Source of the DNA: Lachnospiraceae bacterium
GTDB lineage: Bacteria; Bacillota; Clostridia; Lachnospirales; Lachnospiraceae
NCBI GenBank assembly: GCA_024687125.1
Contig: JAILFA010000012.1
Coordinates: 1-64,000, forward strand
DNA length: 64,000 bases
Reading direction: 5' to 3'
A model generated the notes under the pieces. It did no database searches. It was not told where the DNA came from and saw only the letters and a program-made list of their open reading frames with translations. Made by a program: the position numbers and the translations under genes. This document shows, in pieces, positions 13,419 to 35,083 of the stretch (positions within the stretch are counted from its first letter, which is position 1; the number at the start of each line of letters is the position of its first letter).

Positions 13419-14073
13419 CCGCCGACAGGGGGGATCCGGAATAGAAGATATTGTCCGTCCCGGTCTCTACCTCCGTCTCTTTCTGCACTTCCTTGCGGTC
13501 ATCGCCGGTGATCGCATATTCACTGATGGTCACGTCGGCATCCACCATCCCGTTCGAATTGTCATAGCTCGCACTGACCGTCTCAAGAACCTGCAGTCCG
13601 CCGCTCTCCTCGAGGTACTTGATAAAGCGCTTCCATTCGCTGTAGGAGAGCTGCATCGGAAACTGCAGCGTACTCCGCACGAGAGTGTAGCCTTCCTGAT
13701 TGCCCGGCATCACGGACATAAACTGATAGACCGCCTCCGGATCCGTATAGCTCGCTGTCGTGATGCGGAGATCAAATTCGTCCTCCACACCGCGCAGGAA
13801 CATGATCTGATTATTCTGAGTAATGCCGCAGGGAAACTCACCGATCATCTGATCGTAGTCGGCATTAAACTTATCGGTCTGAACCGTGTATTCGCCGCTC
13901 GAGTCATCGATCTTCTTGAGCCGATCATATTCGGACTGGAGCTCGTCATGTCTGACACTGATCTCGTCACTGGCGTCCTTGATCCGACTGTCCACGACGA
14001 GGATGCTGAACAGTATCATTGCCAGCGCAATACCGAGGACGATCAGCAGTCTGCTCCTGGACACTCCCTTCAT
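13348..14073 (-). CDS. PilO-like pilus assembly protein
   Basis: 241 aa; single N-terminal TM plus coiled coil, directly follows PilM/N. Confidence 0.6.
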   Translation of the reverse strand: MKGVSRSRLLIVLGIALAMILFSILVVDSRIKDASDEISVRHDELQSEYDRLKKIDDSSGEYTVQTDKFNADYDQMIGEFPCGITQNNQIMFLRGVEDEFDLRITTASYTDPEAVYQFMSVMPGNQEGYTLVRSTLQFPMQLSYSEWKRFIKYLEESGGLQVLETVSASYDNSNGMVDADVTISEYAITGDDRKEVQKETEVETGTDNIFYSGSPLSAGAGYQYYNAGTNESRSGIRNDLR

Positions 14074-15884
14074 TGCCCTGCCTCCTGAGATGTTTCCGTG
14101 AGTTCATAATCGCGCTTTACCTTGTTGGTCAGCGTACAGGAGATCGTACAGGTGACCGTCTCCGCGTTGCCCTCATAATAGCTGGCGATCGCGCTCGCCT
14201 CGACCTCGGAGACATTGTTCATCCCCTCCAGGGAGCGGAGCATGGCTGCCACAACATCCTTGCCGGAAGCAAGCACCATCATGGAGACATTGCCTTCATC
14301 GATCGTAAAGCTCTCGATGCTCAGTCCGCTCGGCCGCATCTCCTCCAGATCCGCGATGAACGCGGACAGCACATCGTTGTGAGAGGCCGTGATCCCCCGG
14401 ACATTGTGCACGTCATCATTTTTGGTCTTGGCCTCGTTGTAGGCATTCAGCACCGCGTCAGCGCCCTTCAGGCTCCGCACCTCGCTTTCAAGGTGATCCG
14501 TATCATTTTTGAGCGAAAGGTATTTTGTCGCCGGTATCGCGATCGAGATCGCACTGACTGCAAAAGCACCGGCCAGTATGATCCGGTAGATATGCTTCCC
14601 GCTGGATTCCGCTTTGCTCTGTGTAAGCTCCTGAGAAACAAAGCCGACAGGCTTGATGACCGCGCCGTAGTTGTCCAGAAAACGCATCGCCTGGTCATGC
14701 ATGAGCGAAGTGCGGGGAATAAACACGCCCTTGATCTGGTCGACCGAAATGACCGATACGGACAGCTGTGACTCCAGGATATCCCGAACACCATGATAAT
14801 AGATAGCGTCACCCATCAGGAGCACCTTTTCCACCGGACGCATCCCGCGGTTTCTCGTATAATAGATCATCGTCCGGCGGATCATGTCGATCGCGAAATA
14901 CAGCTGCTCCATCAGAGGGCTGTTGGGCGGCAGATCCTCGTTGATCATCTTCGTGGTGCGCAGCATCTCATCCGCGCGCTCCGCGCTGACCCACTTTTCC
15001 CGGGCTACGATATCAATGACCTGATCCATGCCGAAATCCATATTTCGCTGCATGATCATATCACCGTTGTCAAAGAAGGTCATCGATGTGTGATCACCGG
15101 AGATATCCACGGTCAGTGTCGGTTCCTTGCCGACCTGCATGGCGGCGAGCCGGAATACGCTGTTACCGATGAAATCGATCGACTCCACCCGCATCTTGAG
15201 ATAGGCGGCCATCTCATACAGCGTGCTGACCTGCTCGTTGGGCGCGGCGATCGCCATGACGCGGATCTCTCCGCGCTTTTTCTTTTTGCTGCGCTTCTCG
15301 GCGCCTTCTTCGCCATCCGCGGCGGGCGCATGGTCCTTCTTTTTCTTTCTTCCGGCGCGCTCACGGCGCTTTTTACGCGTCTTGCGCTCCTTGTCCGGAT
15401 GCTTTTTTTCAAAGGTGGTCAGTTCGACATCCGAATCACTCGCAAGATCATCGTTGTCCTCCTGATTCTCCTGTCCCTCCTGCTCTGCTCCCGCGGCGTC
15501 TTCCGCCTGGCGCACGGCCGCGACACGGTAAAAGCCGATAACATACTCCTCCAGATTGATGGGGAAGTATTCGCCGGCGTTGGTCGTGACGATCTGACGG
15601 ATGCGTGCGTCCGACATGTTGGGGAGGATCACTTCGCGGGTCATGACCTTGTCCGCGGGAAGTGTAAAGATCACATTGCGGGAACGGATACCCGCACTGG
15701 CAAGCTGCAGCTTCAGAAATCCGGCGAACGCCTCCGGATCGAGAACGGTGCTGTCATCGACCAGTTCCTTGGGGCATTCCCGCTCCAGCAGACGGCGCAC
15801 ACGCGTCGTACCGCCGCTGCGATGGTGCAGCTGCGCGATCCTGAGCACATTATTATTGATCACTATCGACAGGATATCTGCCAT
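14070..15884 (-). CDS. PilM-PilN fusion type IV pilus assembly protein
   Basis: 604 aa; PilM-like N-terminal actin fold (LSIVINNNVLRIAQL..., LTVDISGDHTSMTFFDNGDMIMQRNMDFG) and PilN-like C-terminus with TM (IYRIILAGAFAVSAISIAIPATKYLSLKNDTDHLESEVRSL). Confidence 0.75.
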   Translation of the reverse strand: MADILSIVINNNVLRIAQLHHRSGGTTRVRRLLERECPKELVDDSTVLDPEAFAGFLKLQLASAGIRSRNVIFTLPADKVMTREVILPNMSDARIRQIVTTNAGEYFPINLEEYVIGFYRVAAVRQAEDAAGAEQEGQENQEDNDDLASDSDVELTTFEKKHPDKERKTRKKRRERAGRKKKKDHAPAADGEEGAEKRSKKKKRGEIRVMAIAAPNEQVSTLYEMAAYLKMRVESIDFIGNSVFRLAAMQVGKEPTLTVDISGDHTSMTFFDNGDMIMQRNMDFGMDQVIDIVAREKWVSAERADEMLRTTKMINEDLPPNSPLMEQLYFAIDMIRRTMIYYTRNRGMRPVEKVLLMGDAIYYHGVRDILESQLSVSVISVDQIKGVFIPRTSLMHDQAMRFLDNYGAVIKPVGFVSQELTQSKAESSGKHIYRIILAGAFAVSAISIAIPATKYLSLKNDTDHLESEVRSLKGADAVLNAYNEAKTKNDDVHNVRGITASHNDVLSAFIADLEEMRPSGLSIESFTIDEGNVSMMVLASGKDVVAAMLRSLEGMNNVSEVEASAIASYYEGNAETVTCTISCTLTNKVKRDYELTETSQEAGQ

Positions 15885-15885
15885 C

Positions 15886-16494
15886 TCAACTGTTCCTCAT
15901 ATCTGCCGTAACTGGCGCTTCCATACCGGCGGGCAGGAAGCCTGCCCAAAACCCATCGCCGGACATCTGCTCGCTGCTGCCGGCCCAGACACCCGTCCGT
16001 ACCATGCGTATGCCGGTGTTCCGGTCAACCTCTTCCCGCAGGAAGATCATGATCTCCCCGGTATCACTGTCTCCGCGTGCCTTGCGCGACACCAGCATCG
16101 GTGCCACGGGGATGTAATCCCGTACGGCATCCGCAAAGCTGTCATCCTGTAAAAAAAGCGTCGAAACCGCGATCGGTGCGGAATAGACGCCATTGGACGA
16201 AAGAGAACTCTTAAGCGCATCATATGCGATCTCGTCATACAGCACACTCTCAAGGGCACTGTAGACCATATTGATATTCTGCTGATCGCGTCTTTCCCTT
16301 CCTCTCTCGATATAGCGCACCAGCGCAGGACTGATGACACCTGTCAGCATCACCATCACGGAAACTGCAATGATCAGTTCGATCAGGGAAAAACCGGCTC
16401 TGGAAAAATCCGTCGCATCGGAGGATCTATTCGGTATCCGCTGCGCCTTCCTCAATGTCTTCCTCTGCCTCACGGCTTGTCGACGGTACTTCAA
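15886..16494 (-). CDS. Type IV prepilin
   Basis: 202 aa; RAGFSLIELIIAVSVMVMLTGVISPALVRYIERGRE. Confidence 0.8.
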   Translation of the reverse strand: MKYRRQAVRQRKTLRKAQRIPNRSSDATDFSRAGFSLIELIIAVSVMVMLTGVISPALVRYIERGRERRDQQNINMVYSALESVLYDEIAYDALKSSLSSNGVYSAPIAVSTLFLQDDSFADAVRDYIPVAPMLVSRKARGDSDTGEIMIFLREEVDRNTGIRMVRTGVWAGSSEQMSGDGFWAGFLPAGMEAPVTADMRNS

Positions 16495-17038
16495 ACTTAT
16501 TGCCCTTGCTGTCAGCGATCACGCGCTGCTCATTCTTGCTGCCGCTGCGTGCGATCCAGACCTTAAGCTGACCGTTCAGATAGGAGAAACGGATGATCTT
16601 GCCCTTGGCGCGATTGGAGACCAGTGTCGGCATCTGATTGCCCATCACGGCCTGATATTCAATGGTAAACGGATCGGTCGGGTTTTCCTGATAAAGATTA
16701 TCGGTGGAGACCACTGCTCCGTCCCCGCTCTCGATATCGACCGCGCCGTAGCGCCAGGTAACCTTGCCGCTCTTCTGAGAGATCTGCTCCATAAAGGAAT
16801 CGTATGCATCCTCATCCGTCAGCGCCGCGTTGATCCCCTCATAAATGGAGTCGATCGTCTGCATATCCCTGACCTCACGGGCCCTGTCCACATATCGGAT
16901 GATCCTGGGCGCGATCAGACCGACCAGGATGACCATGACGGTGATCGCGATCAGTATCTCGACAAGAGAAAAACCTGCCTTTTTGTCAGATCTCATTTGT
17001 TTTCCCTCTGGTGAATAGCTCTGTTCTATGCAAAACAT
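16427..17038 (-). CDS. Type IV prepilin (major pilin candidate)
   Basis: 203 aa; short leader MRSDKKAGFSLVEILIAITVMVILVGLIAPRIIRYVDRARE. Confidence 0.82.
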   Translation of the reverse strand: MFCIEQSYSPEGKQMRSDKKAGFSLVEILIAITVMVILVGLIAPRIIRYVDRAREVRDMQTIDSIYEGINAALTDEDAYDSFMEQISQKSGKVTWRYGAVDIESGDGAVVSTDNLYQENPTDPFTIEYQAVMGNQMPTLVSNRAKGKIIRFSYLNGQLKVWIARSGSKNEQRVIADSKGNKFEVPSTSREAEEDIEEGAADTE

Positions 17039-17098
17039 GATGTCCGGATGGCTACTCTGCTTGCAATTTTAGTTTGACATCATATTATAACACAAGAA

Positions 17099-18316
17099 TT
17101 ATAATGCGTCGATATTTGTATACAGAGAAATCATCGGAGCAAAAACTGCCGCGATGATCCCGACAACGATCAGTGCCATCACGATGATAATGATCGGTTC
17201 AAGCGCCGCGGCTGCGGCCTCCGTGGCCGCCGTAACCTCTTCCTCGTAATAATCGGCCGCCTTTTCCAGCATACTGTCGACCGTACCCGTCTCCTCGCCG
17301 ACCTTGATCATGTTGACGATCATCATCGGGTAAAGCCCGCTGTCCGCGATCGGATCCGCGAGACGCGACCCGCGGGTAACCTGTTCCTCAGCCCCCTTCA
17401 GACTCTGTTTGTACAGCTCATTGCCGAGTGTATCCGCCGTGATCGTGAGTGCGCGCATGATGGGCATCCCGGAGCCCAGAAGAGTACTCAGATTCCGGCT
17501 GAACTGGGCGCAGACCGTGCTTTTGTTGAGCTTGCCGAGTACCGGGAGTTTGAGTTTGAGACGGTCGATCCGTATTTTGCCGGAGGGCGTCGCCGCGTAA
17601 GAGCGGTATGCGATGACGATCGCGAGGATCACCAGCACCAGGATCCACCAGAAGCTGGTGAAAAATCCGCTGAACGCGACCAGGGTCTTCGTCGCCCCGG
17701 GCATCTCCGTGCCCATCTGATCGAACATCTGCGCATACATCGGGACGATCCTGGTGAGCATGATGACTACGACCGCGAGCGCTACCAGTGCCAGAATGAT
17801 CGGATAGACCATCGCCTTTTTTACTACGCCGCGCATCTTTTCCGACTTTTCGTAATGGATGGCCATGCGTTCAAAGGCCACCTCCAGGCGTCCCGCTTCT
17901 TCGCCGGCGCCGACCAGCGCCGTGAACATCGGCGGGAATACGCGGCTCTGCCGGTGCATGCTCTCCGACAGTGTCGCGCCTTTTTCAACCGAGATGCGCA
18001 CATCACGGAGGGCGTCCTTGAACATCTGATTCTCCGACTGCTCCTCCAGCATTTCCAGGGAACGCACGATGCTCACGCCGGAGCTGGAAAGAGTGACAAA
18101 CTGCCGGCAGAAGACGCTCATCTCCCGATGAGAGATCCCTTTGCTGAACGAGGGCAGCTTGATATTCCTGTCCAGACCGCTGGCTTCCTGTACGGAGATG
18201 ACCGTGTTGCCGCCGGATTTCAGCAGTTCGATCGCCGCGTTTTTATCACCCGCGGGAACTGTTCCCATCCGGGTCCTGCCTTCCGGTGTGATGATCCGGT
18301 ACTTGTAATTCGCCAT
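17099..18316 (-). CDS. pilC: Type II secretion/type IV pilus inner-membrane protein (PilC/GspF)
   Basis: 405 aa; two T2SSF domains, ALVGAGEEAGRLEVAFERMA and IKVGEETGTVDSMLEKAADYYEEEV. Confidence 0.92.
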   Translation of the reverse strand: MANYKYRIITPEGRTRMGTVPAGDKNAAIELLKSGGNTVISVQEASGLDRNIKLPSFSKGISHREMSVFCRQFVTLSSSGVSIVRSLEMLEEQSENQMFKDALRDVRISVEKGATLSESMHRQSRVFPPMFTALVGAGEEAGRLEVAFERMAIHYEKSEKMRGVVKKAMVYPIILALVALAVVVIMLTRIVPMYAQMFDQMGTEMPGATKTLVAFSGFFTSFWWILVLVILAIVIAYRSYAATPSGKIRIDRLKLKLPVLGKLNKSTVCAQFSRNLSTLLGSGMPIMRALTITADTLGNELYKQSLKGAEEQVTRGSRLADPIADSGLYPMMIVNMIKVGEETGTVDSMLEKAADYYEEEVTAATEAAAAALEPIIIIVMALIVVGIIAAVFAPMISLYTNIDAL

Positions 18317-18327
18317 GCCTTTTCCCT

Positions 18328-20028
18328 TTACTCTTCGTACGCGATCTTGCGCACCTCATCCATCGATGTGATCCTCTCGCGCACCAGACGCGCCGCCTGC
18401 TGCTGCAGCGTTGTCATGCCTTCATCCAGCGCGATCTGCTTGATCTCCGAACTGGGGCGCATCCGCGCGATCGCCAGATGGATCTCCGGCGAAGACGGCA
18501 GCATCTCATAAACCGCGATCCGCCCGTAATAGCCGGTGTGGCTGCAGCGCTGGCAGCCGACGGGTTCACTGATCGTCAGGGGTTCCGCGGGATCGACACC
18601 GAGCTCCTGCTTTTCCTCCTCGGTCGCCTCGCGGTCACGTTTGCAACTGCAGAGCCTGCGGACCAGGCGCTGTGCCACGACACCGACAAGCGCATCCGCG
18701 ATCAGATAAGGCTCGATGCCCATGTTCATAAGTCTGGCCACCGAGGCCTCAGTACTGTTCGTGTGCAGGGTGGAGACCACCAGATGGCCAGTGATGGATG
18801 CCTGGATCGCGATCTCCGCAGTCTCGGAGTCGCGGATCTCACCGATCATGATGACATCCGGATCCTGTCGCAGGATCGAACGCAGCGCACTGGCGAAGCT
18901 CATGTTGATCTTGTGGTTGACCTGGACCTGGTTCACGCCGTCCACGTTGGCTTCGACCGGGTCCTCGACCGTGACGATATTGACGCTCTCTTTGTTGAGC
19001 TGAGAAAGAGCCGTGTACAGAGTTGTGGATTTACCGCTTCCGGTAGGTCCTGTCACCAGGATCAGACCGTGCCGGTGCGAAAGCATATCATCAAACTTGA
19101 CCAGGTCATCTCCCTCCAGACCCAGTTCGCGTTTGTCGCGAGTCAGGCTCTCCTTGTTGTTGAATCGCATGACCAGTTTTTCACCGTAAACCGTCGGGAT
19201 CGAAGATACGCGGACATCATATTCCACGTGGTCGACCACAAGCGTCGTCCGGCCGTCCTGCGGCTTTCTCTTTTCGGAGATATCCATGCCGGAAATGATC
19301 TTGACACGGGCGGTGATCGCCGCCTGGATCGTGGAGTCGTGGCGCATGGCCTCGATCAGGTCGCCGTCGACACGAAAACGGATCCGGATCCCGTTGCGCA
19401 TGGGTTCAAAATGGATATCGCTGGCTCTCTGGTGTACCGCCTGCTCCATGATCGAACGCACCATGACAACGATCGGCGAGTTGTCGGTCTCGGTCTGTTC
19501 ATCGCGCTTTTCGCTCTTTTCCTCCTGCGCATCCTCTTCGCCGAACTCCTTTTTATAGCGCTCTGCGACCTCCATCACGGACTGCCGGCCGAAGAATCTG
19601 TCGATCTCGTAGGCGATCTGTGAGCTGGTCGAAAGGACCGGCTGTATTCTGCGGTTCGTAATGATGGAAATATCGTCCATCGCGATGAAGTCCATCGGAT
19701 CCGACATGGCTACCAGCAGGATGTTGGGATTGTTCTTGTCAAAGCCGATCGGGATCAGGTTATACTGCTTCGCGATGGTCTCATTGATCAGATAGACCGC
19801 ATCCTTGTCGAGCTTGATGTTGCGCAACTCCACATAGTCGATGTGCAGCAGCTCAGTCAGGATGTCGACCATCTTCTGCTCGGATACCAGGCCCAGGCTC
19901 ATGAGCGTTTCGCCGAGCTTGGTACCGCGTGTCTTCTGCTCTTTCAGCGCCTTTTCCAGCTGCTCCGGGGTGATGACCTGCTTCTGTACGAGAACGTCAC
20001 CCAGACGGATTCTTTGCCTTTGGATCAT
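18328..20028 (-). CDS. pilB: Type IV pilus assembly ATPase (PilB/GspE)
   Basis: 566 aa; Walker A VTGPTGSGKSTTLYTAL, QVNHKINMSFASALRSILRQDPDVIMIGEIRD, Cys motif CSC...CQRC. Confidence 0.95.
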   Translation of the reverse strand: MIQRQRIRLGDVLVQKQVITPEQLEKALKEQKTRGTKLGETLMSLGLVSEQKMVDILTELLHIDYVELRNIKLDKDAVYLINETIAKQYNLIPIGFDKNNPNILLVAMSDPMDFIAMDDISIITNRRIQPVLSTSSQIAYEIDRFFGRQSVMEVAERYKKEFGEEDAQEEKSEKRDEQTETDNSPIVVMVRSIMEQAVHQRASDIHFEPMRNGIRIRFRVDGDLIEAMRHDSTIQAAITARVKIISGMDISEKRKPQDGRTTLVVDHVEYDVRVSSIPTVYGEKLVMRFNNKESLTRDKRELGLEGDDLVKFDDMLSHRHGLILVTGPTGSGKSTTLYTALSQLNKESVNIVTVEDPVEANVDGVNQVQVNHKINMSFASALRSILRQDPDVIMIGEIRDSETAEIAIQASITGHLVVSTLHTNSTEASVARLMNMGIEPYLIADALVGVVAQRLVRRLCSCKRDREATEEEKQELGVDPAEPLTISEPVGCQRCSHTGYYGRIAVYEMLPSSPEIHLAIARMRPSSEIKQIALDEGMTTLQQQAARLVRERITSMDEVRKIAYEE

Positions 20029-27231: not shown

Positions 27232-29034
27232 TTACTGAAGAGCGTTCTTGGCATCGATCTGAGGCTGCCACTTCTCGCAGTCGAACTTGTACAGATCCTG
27301 GAAGCCCATGCCGTCCAGTGTCTGGGTCATCTCATCCCACAGCGCGTCAAACGCAGCATCGTCATCGACGAAGATCATCTGCCAGCTGTACTGCTCCAGG
27401 GACTCTTCGCACTGGTTACGTACAACAGAGATGTCCGCCGTATCGGAAACGAGCGTAACCGCAACGTTCGGGGAGATCACGAGCTTGTTGTTCTTCTTCA
27501 TCCACTCTGCAGGCTCCGCTGCGCCAAACCTCTCCGCCCAGTCCTTCTTCATCTGGGTCAGCGTGGAAGCCTTCCAGGAAGCCCAATAATCCTTGGCATA
27601 GGTCTCGCCGGTGTTCGGGTTCACAGAGTTCGCGGAAACGATCCACTCGTTGATCTGGTTGTTGCCGTCGCTGTAGCCTGCCCCGCCGTACTCTTCGGGA
27701 ACCGGAAGGTTGTCCATCAGAGCGTTGTCGTTGATAGCAGTGAACTTGCCGTCTGCGCCGACTTCATAGTTGAAGCCCTCGATACCGCAGTGCTCAAACT
27801 GGCATCCCTCAGGAGAAGCGTACCAGTCAAGGAACTCCATGATCTTCTTGTACTTCGCATCGTCAACCTGGGAGCCGACACCGAACACACGGCCGCTGCC
27901 GTAGAAAGCATCCGCATCAGCATAGTAGTTCTGATCGCCAACGGGAACAAAGATCATGGCTGTGCCGTTGTCAAGACGCTCCTGGCTGTTCCAGAAACCG
28001 ACCTGCCAGCTGTACCAGAACATATTGACCTGTCCGGCGCTCATCTTTGCGCAGGCAGCGTTCCAATCCTGGGTACCGGAGTCGGGGTCGACGAGACCCG
28101 CTCTGTAGAGGGAGTTCAGGAACTTCAGCATCTTGTAGTAGGTAGCGTTCTTGTCGGTGAGGGGTGTGAAGGTCTTGCCGTCCGCCTTGAGGATCGCGGA
28201 ATCCTTGATCTTCTCGCCGTACCAGGTGGTCAGCTGAACAACGTTCGCGATACCGAGCATGTTGTCGTTGCCGTCCCAATCAGGCCACAGAGAAACCGCA
28301 TAGCACGGATCTCCGGCATCGTTGGTGGGATGTGCCGCCTGCATCTTGCCCAGGACATCGACGAGGTCGTTGAGGTCCTTGATCTCCGGGCAGCCGAGCT
28401 CCTGATAGTAATCCCAGCGGAGCAGCGGGCTGGAGTAGATGACATCCTGCGAATAAGAGGTCGGAGAGGTGTTCATCATCTGGGTCGGGATACCGTAGAT
28501 CTGACCGCTGTTGCCCTCGAGACCAGAGTTGTAAACGTTGATCTGATCCATATACTGTGCAAGGTTCGGATAGTTCGGCAGATCCGCCGTGATATCCTTG
28601 ACGAGGCCGGTCTTGACACAGTCCGCGAAATCAACGGAGTCAAGAAGGACGATATCGCCGAGGTTGCCGGACTGCGTCCTGGTCTGATAGATCGCGTCGC
28701 CCGCTACCTGCGGAGCGATGATGTTGAGCTCGATGTTGAATCGGTCCTTGACGACCTTGTCAAACCATCCGGTCTGCAGACCCTGATAGTTCGCAGCCGC
28801 GTCGTAGACTTCGATCGTCATCATTTCGCCGTCAGCGGCAGCCGGTGCCGCATCGGTCGTGGCTGTGGTGTCAGCCGTGGTGTCGGTCGAGGTCGTCTGC
28901 GTCTGGTCAGTCGCCGCAGGCTGTGTTGCGTCACCGCCGGCCGGCTGTGCTGCCCCGCCTTCGCCGCATCCGGCAAGGGACGCGATGACCATAGCGGTAG
29001 CGGCAAACAGTGAGATAAGTTTCTTTCCTTTCAT
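27232..29034 (-). CDS. Extracellular solute-binding lipoprotein (sugar ABC transporter)
   Basis: 600 aa; lipobox LAGCGEGG, Thr-rich linker, next to two permeases. Confidence 0.88.
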   Translation of the reverse strand: MKGKKLISLFAATAMVIASLAGCGEGGAAQPAGGDATQPAATDQTQTTSTDTTADTTATTDAAPAAADGEMMTIEVYDAAANYQGLQTGWFDKVVKDRFNIELNIIAPQVAGDAIYQTRTQSGNLGDIVLLDSVDFADCVKTGLVKDITADLPNYPNLAQYMDQINVYNSGLEGNSGQIYGIPTQMMNTSPTSYSQDVIYSSPLLRWDYYQELGCPEIKDLNDLVDVLGKMQAAHPTNDAGDPCYAVSLWPDWDGNDNMLGIANVVQLTTWYGEKIKDSAILKADGKTFTPLTDKNATYYKMLKFLNSLYRAGLVDPDSGTQDWNAACAKMSAGQVNMFWYSWQVGFWNSQERLDNGTAMIFVPVGDQNYYADADAFYGSGRVFGVGSQVDDAKYKKIMEFLDWYASPEGCQFEHCGIEGFNYEVGADGKFTAINDNALMDNLPVPEEYGGAGYSDGNNQINEWIVSANSVNPNTGETYAKDYWASWKASTLTQMKKDWAERFGAAEPAEWMKKNNKLVISPNVAVTLVSDTADISVVRNQCEESLEQYSWQMIFVDDDAAFDALWDEMTQTLDGMGFQDLYKFDCEKWQPQIDAKNALQ

Positions 29035-32212: not shown

Positions 32213-34129
32213 TCACGACGCCTTTTTTTCGGTCTGTGAATCGGTGCCCTGCGGCATCTCGATGATGTTGTCCGGCTGTGCCGCCGCACCGCCGCGCGTG
32301 GCGGGATTCATCCTGACATCGTCTCCGAAGATCGTCGCAAAGTCATTTTTCATGGAGATGGTGAAATACCCTGCCGCATCGCATTTTTCCTTGAACGAAG
32401 CCGCTTTTTCCGGGTTTCCATAGTCTCTGTCCGTATCATCGCAGAGGAGCATGTATGCTCTTCCTTCATATTTACCATTGGACAGCGTGTACTGCGCCAT
32501 GGCAAAATCGCCGGTGCTGTTCCCGAATGCCACAACAGGGACCTTGCCGATCTCCCTGGAAATGGCGGAAACCTTGTTCATCTTGAGATTCTTCACGATG
32601 AGCGCGTCGCCCATGCACAGCTCATCATCCGCAGAAAAGGTGTAATTCAGCCCGTCCGCGTCGCCCTGGTTTGTTCCTTTGAGCAGGAAATCCGAGCCGA
32701 TGACGCGGTCAACAGGGACCACATCGCCGATCTCATCCTCGACCAGTGCTCTGGCGGTCTGTCTTTCTGTCCCGCTGACGACGTAGACCTTGAAATCATT
32801 CGCGGCAAGATATCTGATGACGGAGATCATGGGCTTATAGAAAGCCGTTCCGTAGGTGAGATTGTCAAATCCTTCCGGCGTGAGCTTTTTAAACTCCCTG
32901 ACATAATCCTGGAACTGCTCAACGGTCAGATCCGAATAGCACTGCGCGAAATGCTGCGCCAGCGCTTTCATGTCAAAGCTTCCGATGGTGCCGTCATTCA
33001 TGGCGTCGCGGACACTCTGCGCGAATGTGCGCATCTCGTCTGTGGGCTGATAGTCAGCGTCCTCAAGGACTCTGTGCACGAACATGCAGGTATCGACATA
33101 GGTGGGGAAGAGTTCTCCGATGAACGTGCCGTCCATGTCAAAGACCGCGATCCTGTCCTCAACCGGAACATACTGATCGGAGTTTTCGTCACAGACCTGC
33201 CGGACATATTCACGGATGGACTCTGCCACCTGCGAGCCGTCCGTCCAGTATTCCAGTTCTGCCGCGGGTTCGCAGGGAACTTCCGCCTGTTCTTCGGCAG
33301 GCTCCGTCTCTTCGACTGCCTCTTCGGCACTTCCCGCCGGCTCCTGTGCGGCAGGGATGCCGAAGCCGGGCGCACCCTTCAGATTCATCTCCTCCCAGGT
33401 TTCGGGGCTCAGGATCTCCAGCTGATCGATCACGACCACACAGTCCTCACGGACATTCTGCATGACAGTCTTCATGCAGTCTTTGGGGATCGCCACACAC
33501 CCGCCGGTATAGGGCTTGACCGGCCCCAGGCAGTGCAGAAAGATCGCCGAACCGACACCGGGGACGCCTTCCTCGTTGTAGCTGATGTTCAGGCAGTACT
33601 GATACTGGTACTCGTAGTCCATGATCCGTTCACTGTCATCGACGGCAAGATCCGGCAGATCCTTGATACTGACCATCTGATTATAGGAATAGCCGTCACG
33701 GACATCGCCGGACCAGTAATCATCGCCGGTCACCTTATGATATTTCATCTGGCATCCCGGGTCACTCGCGATTCCGAACGCGTAATTGAAACGGAATTCA
33801 CCGACAGGGGTCATCCCATCCCCTTCTTTGGTCTTGCCCAGCCCGAACTTGCCGATATACCCCGGCGTTGTCATGATCTGCTTCCAGTTTCCGGACGCAT
33901 CCTTTTCGTGCATGGATACATAGGCCGTCGTTTGCGTTACTCCCGCCACGACAAACAACTGTGAGGCATTTTTCTCCTCCCCCAGCTTTGCGATCCATTC
34001 CGGGGAAGCCTCCGCCTTCTTCAGATCGGCCTTTTTGCTCCCGCAGCCGGTCAGGACCGCTCCTGCCATGAGCACTGCCATCACCAGTGCTGTCACTCTT
34101 CCGAACAGTTTTTTCTTCATAATGCCCAT
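32213..34129 (-). CDS. Lipoprotein: N-terminal L,D-transpeptidase (YkuD) domain fused to C-terminal HAD phosphatase
   Basis: 638 aa; lipobox LTGCGSK; FLHCLGPVKPYTGGCVAIP (YkuD); IAVFDMDGTFIGELFPTYVDTCM (HAD). Confidence 0.82.
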   Translation of the reverse strand: MGIMKKKLFGRVTALVMAVLMAGAVLTGCGSKKADLKKAEASPEWIAKLGEEKNASQLFVVAGVTQTTAYVSMHEKDASGNWKQIMTTPGYIGKFGLGKTKEGDGMTPVGEFRFNYAFGIASDPGCQMKYHKVTGDDYWSGDVRDGYSYNQMVSIKDLPDLAVDDSERIMDYEYQYQYCLNISYNEEGVPGVGSAIFLHCLGPVKPYTGGCVAIPKDCMKTVMQNVREDCVVVIDQLEILSPETWEEMNLKGAPGFGIPAAQEPAGSAEEAVEETEPAEEQAEVPCEPAAELEYWTDGSQVAESIREYVRQVCDENSDQYVPVEDRIAVFDMDGTFIGELFPTYVDTCMFVHRVLEDADYQPTDEMRTFAQSVRDAMNDGTIGSFDMKALAQHFAQCYSDLTVEQFQDYVREFKKLTPEGFDNLTYGTAFYKPMISVIRYLAANDFKVYVVSGTERQTARALVEDEIGDVVPVDRVIGSDFLLKGTNQGDADGLNYTFSADDELCMGDALIVKNLKMNKVSAISREIGKVPVVAFGNSTGDFAMAQYTLSNGKYEGRAYMLLCDDTDRDYGNPEKAASFKEKCDAAGYFTISMKNDFATIFGDDVRMNPATRGGAAAQPDNIIEMPQGTDSQTEKKAS

Positions 34130-34147
34130 CTCCTTACGTCACATTGA

Positions 34148-35083
34148 TCAGTCATTTTCAAAGAGAGGCGTGGAGAAATATCTCTCTGCAGTGTCGGGCA
34201 AAACAGTGACCACGGTCTTGCCCTTTCCGAGTTTTTTCGCCAGTTTCAGGGCTGCGGCAACGTTGGTCCCGGAACTGATGCCGCACATGATCCCCTCCCT
34301 GCGCGCAAGATCCTTAGCTGTGCGGATGGCCTCCTCGTCGGAAACAATATAGATATCATCGTAGATCTCACGGTTCAGATTGCGCGGGATGATACCGTCT
34401 CCGATCCCCATCTGGAGATGTGTCCCGATATTTCCGCCCGCCAGGATCGCAGCGTTCTCCGGCTCGACGGCCCAGATCTCAATATCCGGGTACTGCGCCT
34501 TGAGCGTCTCTCCTATGCCGCTGATCGTCCCGCCGGTCCCGATGCCCGAGCAGAAACCGTGTATGGGCCCCGCGACCTGCTCAAGGATCTCCAGCCCGGT
34601 ATGATGTCTGTGCACCTGCGGATTTGCAGGGTTTTCAAACTGCTGGGGGATATAGACTCTGGGATCCTCCTCGGCCATTCGGAACGCCGTCTTCAGGCAC
34701 TCATCCATGCACGCGCCGATGTCGCCGTCATCGTGGATCAGGATCACCTCCGCCCCGTAGTGTCTGACAAGAAAGCGCCTCTCCTCACTGACGCTGTCCG
34801 GCATGATGATCTTTGTCTCGTACCCCATGACCGCACCGATGAGAGCGAGACCGATGCCCTGATTGCCGCTCGTGGGCTCGACGATGATCGTATCATCCTT
34901 AATGATGCCGGCCTTAATGGCCTGCATGACCATATTGTATGCCGTACGCGTCTTGATCGAGCCGCCGACATTGAGTCCCTCATATTTGACCAGCACCTCC
35001 GCGGCATCGGGATCGTTCATCCTGTTCAGCCTGATCATAGGGGTGTGTCCGATGTACTCCAGAATATTATCGCAGATCATCAT
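34148..35083 (-). CDS. cysK: Cysteine synthase family PLP enzyme
   Basis: 311 aa; VGGSIKTRTAYNMV, PTSGNQGIGLALIGAVMGYE, CSGIGTGGTISGIGE. Confidence 0.88.
   Translation of the reverse strand: MMICDNILEYIGHTPMIRLNRMNDPDAAEVLVKYEGLNVGGSIKTRTAYNMVMQAIKAGIIKDDTIIVEPTSGNQGIGLALIGAVMGYETKIIMPDSVSEERRFLVRHYGAEVILIHDDGDIGACMDECLKTAFRMAEEDPRVYIPQQFENPANPQVHRHHTGLEILEQVAGPIHGFCSGIGTGGTISGIGETLKAQYPDIEIWAVEPENAAILAGGNIGTHLQMGIGDGIIPRNLNREIYDDIYIVSDEEAIRTAKDLARREGIMCGISSGTNVAAALKLAKKLGKGKTVVTVLPDTAERYFSTPLFEND

Follow-up and report, generated by a model that had tools for sequence, protein, structure and literature searches.

Can a single surface protein unite an enzyme acting on the cell wall with a phosphatase, and if so, would the two activities work together or merely side by side? 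The question is raised by one gene in the draft genome of a Lachnospiraceae bacterium, whose relatives originate from rumen and gut. The DNA analysed, hereafter the window, comprises 64,000 nucleotides of contig JAILFA010000012.1. An earlier note had described the gene product as a lipoprotein carrying a YkuD and a HAD motif, and proposed an extracytoplasmic enzyme that links wall remodelling to the dephosphorylation of an envelope substrate.

Gene layout and integrity of the fusion

The gene occupies a minus-strand frame of 638 codons with 0 internal stops (Table 1), and what the earlier note had seen directly in its product was confirmed, including the coordinates, the lipobox, the YkuD motif HCLGPVKPYTGGC (aa 199-211, His199 to Cys211) and the HAD motif DMDGTFIGE (aa 331-339). 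The first ATG is directly abutted by an AAGGAG Shine-Dalgarno sequence that lies 9 nt from the second ATG, and because of this good spacing the second ATG (34120) is probably the true start. The N-terminus carries a lipobox signal peptide, MKKKLFGRVTALVMAVLMAGAVLTGC, recognised both by eye and by pattern. Pfam profiles of YkuD (PF03734, aa 81-234, 25.6 bits against a curated cut-off of 23.4) and HAD (PF12710, aa 328-546, 38.5 bits against 27) match above their cut-offs, and combinations of these domains with further partners recur in relatives. The sequence supports a predicted extracytoplasmic lipoprotein with two catalytic domains that look complete.

Table 1. Features of the YkuD-HAD gene in the window, by window position
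Feature	Position	Strand	Basis and remarks
Whole ORF, 638 aa	32213..34129	-	Frame and sequence; probable start 34120 (second ATG)
Shine-Dalgarno AAGGAG	34130..34135	-	Sequence; 9 nt ahead of second ATG
Signal peptide and lipobox LTGC, aa 26-29 (Cys29 is the predicted lipidated residue)	34043..34120	-	Sequence; most close YkuD relatives also carry a lipobox
YkuD-fold domain, aa 36-255	33365..34024	-	Pfam, alignment, AlphaFold model, Foldseek
YkuD active-site stretch H199-C-X10-C211	33497..33535	-	Alignment of relatives
Glu/Pro/Ala-rich linker, 33 residues, aa 256-288	33266..33364	-	Sequence
HAD phosphatase domain, aa 289-609	32303..33265	-	Pfam, PDB 4ovy, model
HAD motif I DMDGT (Asp331 nucleophile, Asp333, Thr335)	33125..33139	-	Alignment
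HAD motif II Ser452	32774..32776	-	Alignment
HAD motif III Lys519	32573..32575	-	Alignment
HAD motif IV GNSTGD (Asp541)	32507..32524	-	Alignment
C-terminal tail, aa 610-638, without recognised domain	32216..32302	-	Sequence

The upstream cysK gene ends at 34148, a tight spacing to the probable start of the ORF. Operonic organisation with the cysK and nitroreductase genes that lie upstream was considered and set aside; nothing here is built on their proximity, as conservation of the neighbourhood was not found. Elsewhere in the window, a 600-aa ORF (27232-29034, minus strand) located beside two ABC permease genes has 0 Pfam or NCBIfam matches and possibly encodes the solute-binding lipoprotein of the adjacent ABC transporter. 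PilM-like and T2SSE ATPase genes (14070-20028, minus strand) form a type IV pilus-like cluster, which adjoins sigma-70, dnaG and a dGTPase-like HD gene.

That two genes were joined artificially, by an assembly error (a concern already raised in the earlier note) or by a frameshift, would fit a draft genome of 155 contigs and a relative (L037) that holds the same domains as separate adjacent genes. Against this, the contig to which the window belongs is 73 kb long, the frame is intact across a low-complexity linker, and G+C and GC3 are alike in the two halves (0.555/0.72 and 0.534/0.68) and similar in neighbouring genes. Furthermore, a single frame on another contig of this genome, C14 (L115:275-2761), combines three modules in the order YkuD, VanX-like M15 peptidase and HAD. 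It contains one in-frame TAA at 1391-1393 within the M15 part, which reflects either a broken gene or an error of this 3.1-kb contig. Because this fused relative lies on an independent contig, a chimera in the window is very unlikely on sequence grounds; the second fused copy, the intact frame and the even composition led us to reject assembly chimerism, and an artefact of either kind appears extremely improbable. A fusion of the window type, lacking M15, turned up in just one genome, and viral contigs, searched with regard to a phage or mobile origin, contained 0 matches to the gene.

The YkuD-fold domain and its active site

His199 is present in 42 of 42 aligned YkuD relatives and Cys211 in all 41 that reach that column, and the AlphaFold model of the domain is confident (pLDDT 93.9). 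By profile and fold the domain is a member of the YkuD family that lies outside the published motif: instead of H(S/G/D)X14-19C, which is common to Csd6 and L,D-transpeptidases (PMC4599014), the window protein and its relatives contain H-C-X10-C, in most cases continuing with VAI or similar residues, which would define an atypical YkuD subfamily. The LDT_Go 1,3-transpeptidase family was tried as a match for this odd motif and ruled out by the His-Cys spacing of 19 in its H245/C264 pair (PMC10864386).

A Foldseek search of the domain returned Csd6 (E 9.7e-7) and Pgp2 (E 3.5e-5) as best matches, followed by canonical L,D-transpeptidases, with moderate TM scores (0.49 for Csd6). Both were also among the top matches of the profile search (E 1.5e-5 and 7.6e-5), after the uncharacterised 7o21, with the match spanning the N-terminal part only. 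Csd6 functions as a carboxypeptidase only (PMC4599014). The genome encodes three other YkuD proteins with SHGCVN or SMGCVR motifs and longer spacing, which, judging by these motifs, could be the cross-linkers instead of the window protein.

These findings lend no support to the cross-linking role that the earlier note had associated with YkuD enzymes: it is not to be assumed, because the motif is atypical and the closest relatives with a solved structure and a characterised activity are L,D-carboxypeptidases. A genuine L,D-transpeptidase, which would cross-link stem peptides or attach proteins, perhaps the window protein itself, to the wall while the HAD domain serves as a wall-anchored phosphatase, is consistent with the YkuD fold and its conserved Cys and His, with canonical enzymes as the fold matches that come after Csd6 and Pgp2, and with LysM and SLH anchors on other HADs of the family, where phosphatase anchoring recurs. 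Yet neither the motif spacing nor the carboxypeptidase relatives fit such an enzyme, the lipobox already provides an anchor and the three further YkuD genes carry SHGC or MGC motifs, so that we consider this alternative unlikely and infer that trimming is favoured over cross-linking. The YkuD domain shares 61-65% identity with its counterparts in another family of the phylum (f114) and 63% with a Selenomonas enzyme, values compatible with horizontal transfer.

The HAD domain and its fusion partners

All four HAD motifs (DxDxT, S/T, K and GD) are present in the window protein, and Asp331, Asp333, Thr335, Ser452, Lys519 and Asp541 are each invariant in the alignment of 47/47 HAD relatives. The model of this domain is likewise confident (pLDDT 91.2), and the catalytic residues, whose loss on modelling the earlier note had considered, therefore appear to be retained in both domains. 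The full HAD length is matched by 4ovy (profile E 1.7e-47, TM 0.80), and the second-best fold match is PchP (TM 0.55), with a partial profile match (E 1.3e-3). Scoring 14.2 bits against TIGR01488 (NCBIfam, HAD class IB), the window HAD does not reach the cut-off of 45 bits, and the same model matches 46/47 HAD relatives weakly (best E 5.6e-7); the domain is best described, from its sequence, as a class IB-like phosphatase. The earlier remark that HADs are usually cytoplasmic applies to HADs at large, for which the location is unusual, but not to this subfamily, for which it is normal, and a periplasmic HAD is known in PchP (PMC3170909).

As judged from the architectures of its relatives, the HAD domain combines promiscuously with other modules outside the cytoplasm. 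It is fused to LysM (L038, L039), SLH repeats (L071, L073), Cu_amine_oxidN1 (L037, L070 and L072, the last assigned by visual comparison with L070), the amino-acid-binding protein domain SBP_bac_3 (L070), a GH3 domain nearest to the beta-N-acetylhexosaminidase NagZ (L054, L128:5603-8617), a Pfam-identified histidine phosphatase of branch 2 (L011:1351-3759, L050) and a multi-pass membrane segment (L043, L045 and L048, read by eye), and it also occurs as a stand-alone domain behind a lipobox or membrane anchor. Based on frame length and HAD position, the fusion to histidine phosphatase is probably also present in L051-L053, L055, L058, L059, L063 and L066. These HAD-histidine phosphatase proteins are surface double phosphatases of about 800 aa and common in the genus. 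Two uncharacterised secreted domains have likewise moved between YkuD and HAD proteins: an accessory domain of 111 aa (55% identity) is common to the YkuD protein L004 (aa 314-424) and the C-terminus of the HAD protein L071, and a second domain of 146 aa (42% identity) is C-terminal in L033 and N-terminal in L082. Since the HAD of the C14 paralogue clusters with LysM-HADs of the same genus in the HAD tree (SH-aLRT 99, 74% identity), partners have been exchanged. AU tests (p 0.22 for HAD and 0.45 for YkuD) did not decide whether the fusions in the window and on C14 arose from one event.

The wall and surface partners (LysM, SLH, Cu_amine_oxidN1 and NagZ-like GH3) favour substrates at or near the wall; the histidine phosphatase and the amino-acid-binding protein have no special wall link. 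The sheer range of unrelated surface modules fused to this domain speaks more for co-localisation of the activities than for a coupled reaction. The earlier idea that wall remodelling is linked to dephosphorylation thus loses ground, and chemical coupling of the YkuD and HAD reactions is not supported. The same promiscuity could point to a surface phosphatase that scavenges phosphate or nutrients and whose partners came along through domain shuffling as functionally neutral passengers, as suggested by its fusions to SBP_bac_3, assorted anchors and histidine phosphatase (two genomes and, by frame length, probably about 8 more) and by the partner switching in the HAD tree. However, several of the partners are peptidoglycan enzymes (M15, YkuD and NagZ-like GH3), and M15, YkuD and HAD are in places encoded by distinct genes that lie next to one another, for which passenger fusion alone is an insufficient explanation; we regard scavenging as possible but doubtful.

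Association with M15 peptidases and comparison with known systems

Related gut bacteria contain the same parts again, often together with a third wall enzyme, either as fusions or as adjacent genes. In L037, three successive genes encode M15, a YkuD lipoprotein and a HAD with a Cu_amine_oxidN1 stalk, M15 adjoins YkuD in L034 and L036, and M15 is fused to YkuD in L007/L097, L104 and L105 and to HAD in L040/L118. Furthermore, YkuD lies within 4 kb of an annotated M15 gene on Selenomonas ruminantium plasmid pSRC1, and plasmid pSRC2 carries HAD with an M15 remnant upstream. The two plasmids (L094, NC_017078.1, and L095, NC_017076.1) share a stretch of NlpC/P60, acetolactate decarboxylase and STAS genes, which together with the YkuD, HAD and M15 genes resembles a recurring plasmid gene pool. 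Clustering of recurrent neighbours also showed that some relatives lie close to SBP_bac_3 and STAS genes, with no clear pattern. HAD is present in 10/14 known genomes with a close YkuD; in the family sample it was identified in 3/3 other genomes with a close YkuD and in 6/146 without one (Fisher p 1.6e-4, an optimistic value because the genomes are related and not phylogenetically independent). The part of the earlier proposal that placed a wall enzyme and a phosphatase at the surface is thus strengthened by the recurring association with wall-directed modules (VanX-like M15, LysM and NagZ-like GH3), and the parts concerning cross-linking and coupling are not.

Adjacency or fusion of M15 to YkuD in several genomes could alternatively indicate a bypass unit, in which D,D-trimming by M15 is combined with an L,D-acting YkuD enzyme and HAD is accessory. 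A precedent exists in Enterococcus faecium, where the metallo-D,D-carboxypeptidase DdcY feeds the L,D-transpeptidase Ldtfm (PMC12729407). The M15 modules identified here are, however, VanX-like and of the dipeptidase type (207 bits against a VanX equivalog cut-off of 320), the window gene lacks M15 and such a pathway requires no phosphatase, which makes a bypass unit highly unlikely.

We consider it on balance probable that the window gene encodes a lipoprotein in which two tethered enzymes trim wall peptides and hydrolyse phosphomonoesters locally. The computed domains, catalytic residues, lipobox, fold and recurrence of partners carry this reading, and both activities, the localisation, the substrates and any local co-operation would follow from them by prediction. 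The YkuD-fold domain, more likely a trimming L,D-carboxypeptidase than a cross-linker, would attack an L,D bond in peptidoglycan stem peptides through a Cys211 acyl-enzyme formed with the His199/Cys211 pair. The HAD domain would split small phosphomonoesters at the cell surface in a Mg-dependent reaction via an Asp331 phospho-enzyme, for which teichoic-acid-derived phosphates and MurNAc-6-phosphate are candidate substrates, with none singled out. The flexible linker would bring two independent active sites to one place, which does not require that they act on the same target molecule, and the protein may represent one outcome of secreted modules having been shuffled repeatedly, with M15, YkuD and HAD co-travelling as neighbours or fusions. 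A bolder proposal appears quite unlikely, namely that VanX-like M15, YkuD and HAD constitute a mobile, functionally coherent surface cassette, which trims and dephosphorylates wall-derived material (e.g., MurNAc-6-phosphate at former teichoic-acid sites), with the atypical YkuD subfamily specialised for this role and the window gene as its most compact form.

Both domains belong to known families and their combination is new; no description of the YkuD-HAD fusion, the atypical YkuD motif or the M15/YkuD/HAD grouping was found in the literature searched, and a literature search on 4ovy yielded nothing relevant. If both active sites work, stem-peptide processing and phosphatase activity would reside in one surface protein, and the M15/YkuD/HAD grouping would give a widespread uncharacterised subfamily of surface HADs a testable role near the wall.

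VanX-type D-Ala-D-Ala dipeptidases (PF01427) resemble the recurrent third module that is adjacent or fused to YkuD or HAD; unlike VanX, these M15 modules follow signal peptides and score below the equivalog cut-off, and M15 is absent from the window gene. The HAD domain is matched end to end by the HAD hydrolase 4ovy of Planctomyces limnophilus, at 26% identity and with no fusion in the solved 4ovy chain, and shares the DxDxT, Ser, Lys and GD motifs with the exported phosphorylcholine phosphatase PchP of Pseudomonas aeruginosa (4as2; PMC3170909), to which its fold and profile similarity is lower than to 4ovy. The YkuD domain belongs to the same Pfam family, above the cut-off, and the same fold class as the L,D-transpeptidases Bacillus subtilis YkuD, Ldtfm and LdtMt2, but contains HCX10C with TGGCVA in place of their SHGC. 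Its best characterised solved relatives, the L,D-carboxypeptidases Csd6 of Helicobacter pylori and Pgp2 of Campylobacter jejuni, have the Cys/His pair in common with it, but their H-to-C spacing is 16 instead of 12 and Gly follows His where the window protein has Cys. Furthermore, the Lachnospiraceae protein is a lipoprotein that lacks their C-terminal NTF2-like domain and is fused to a HAD domain instead.
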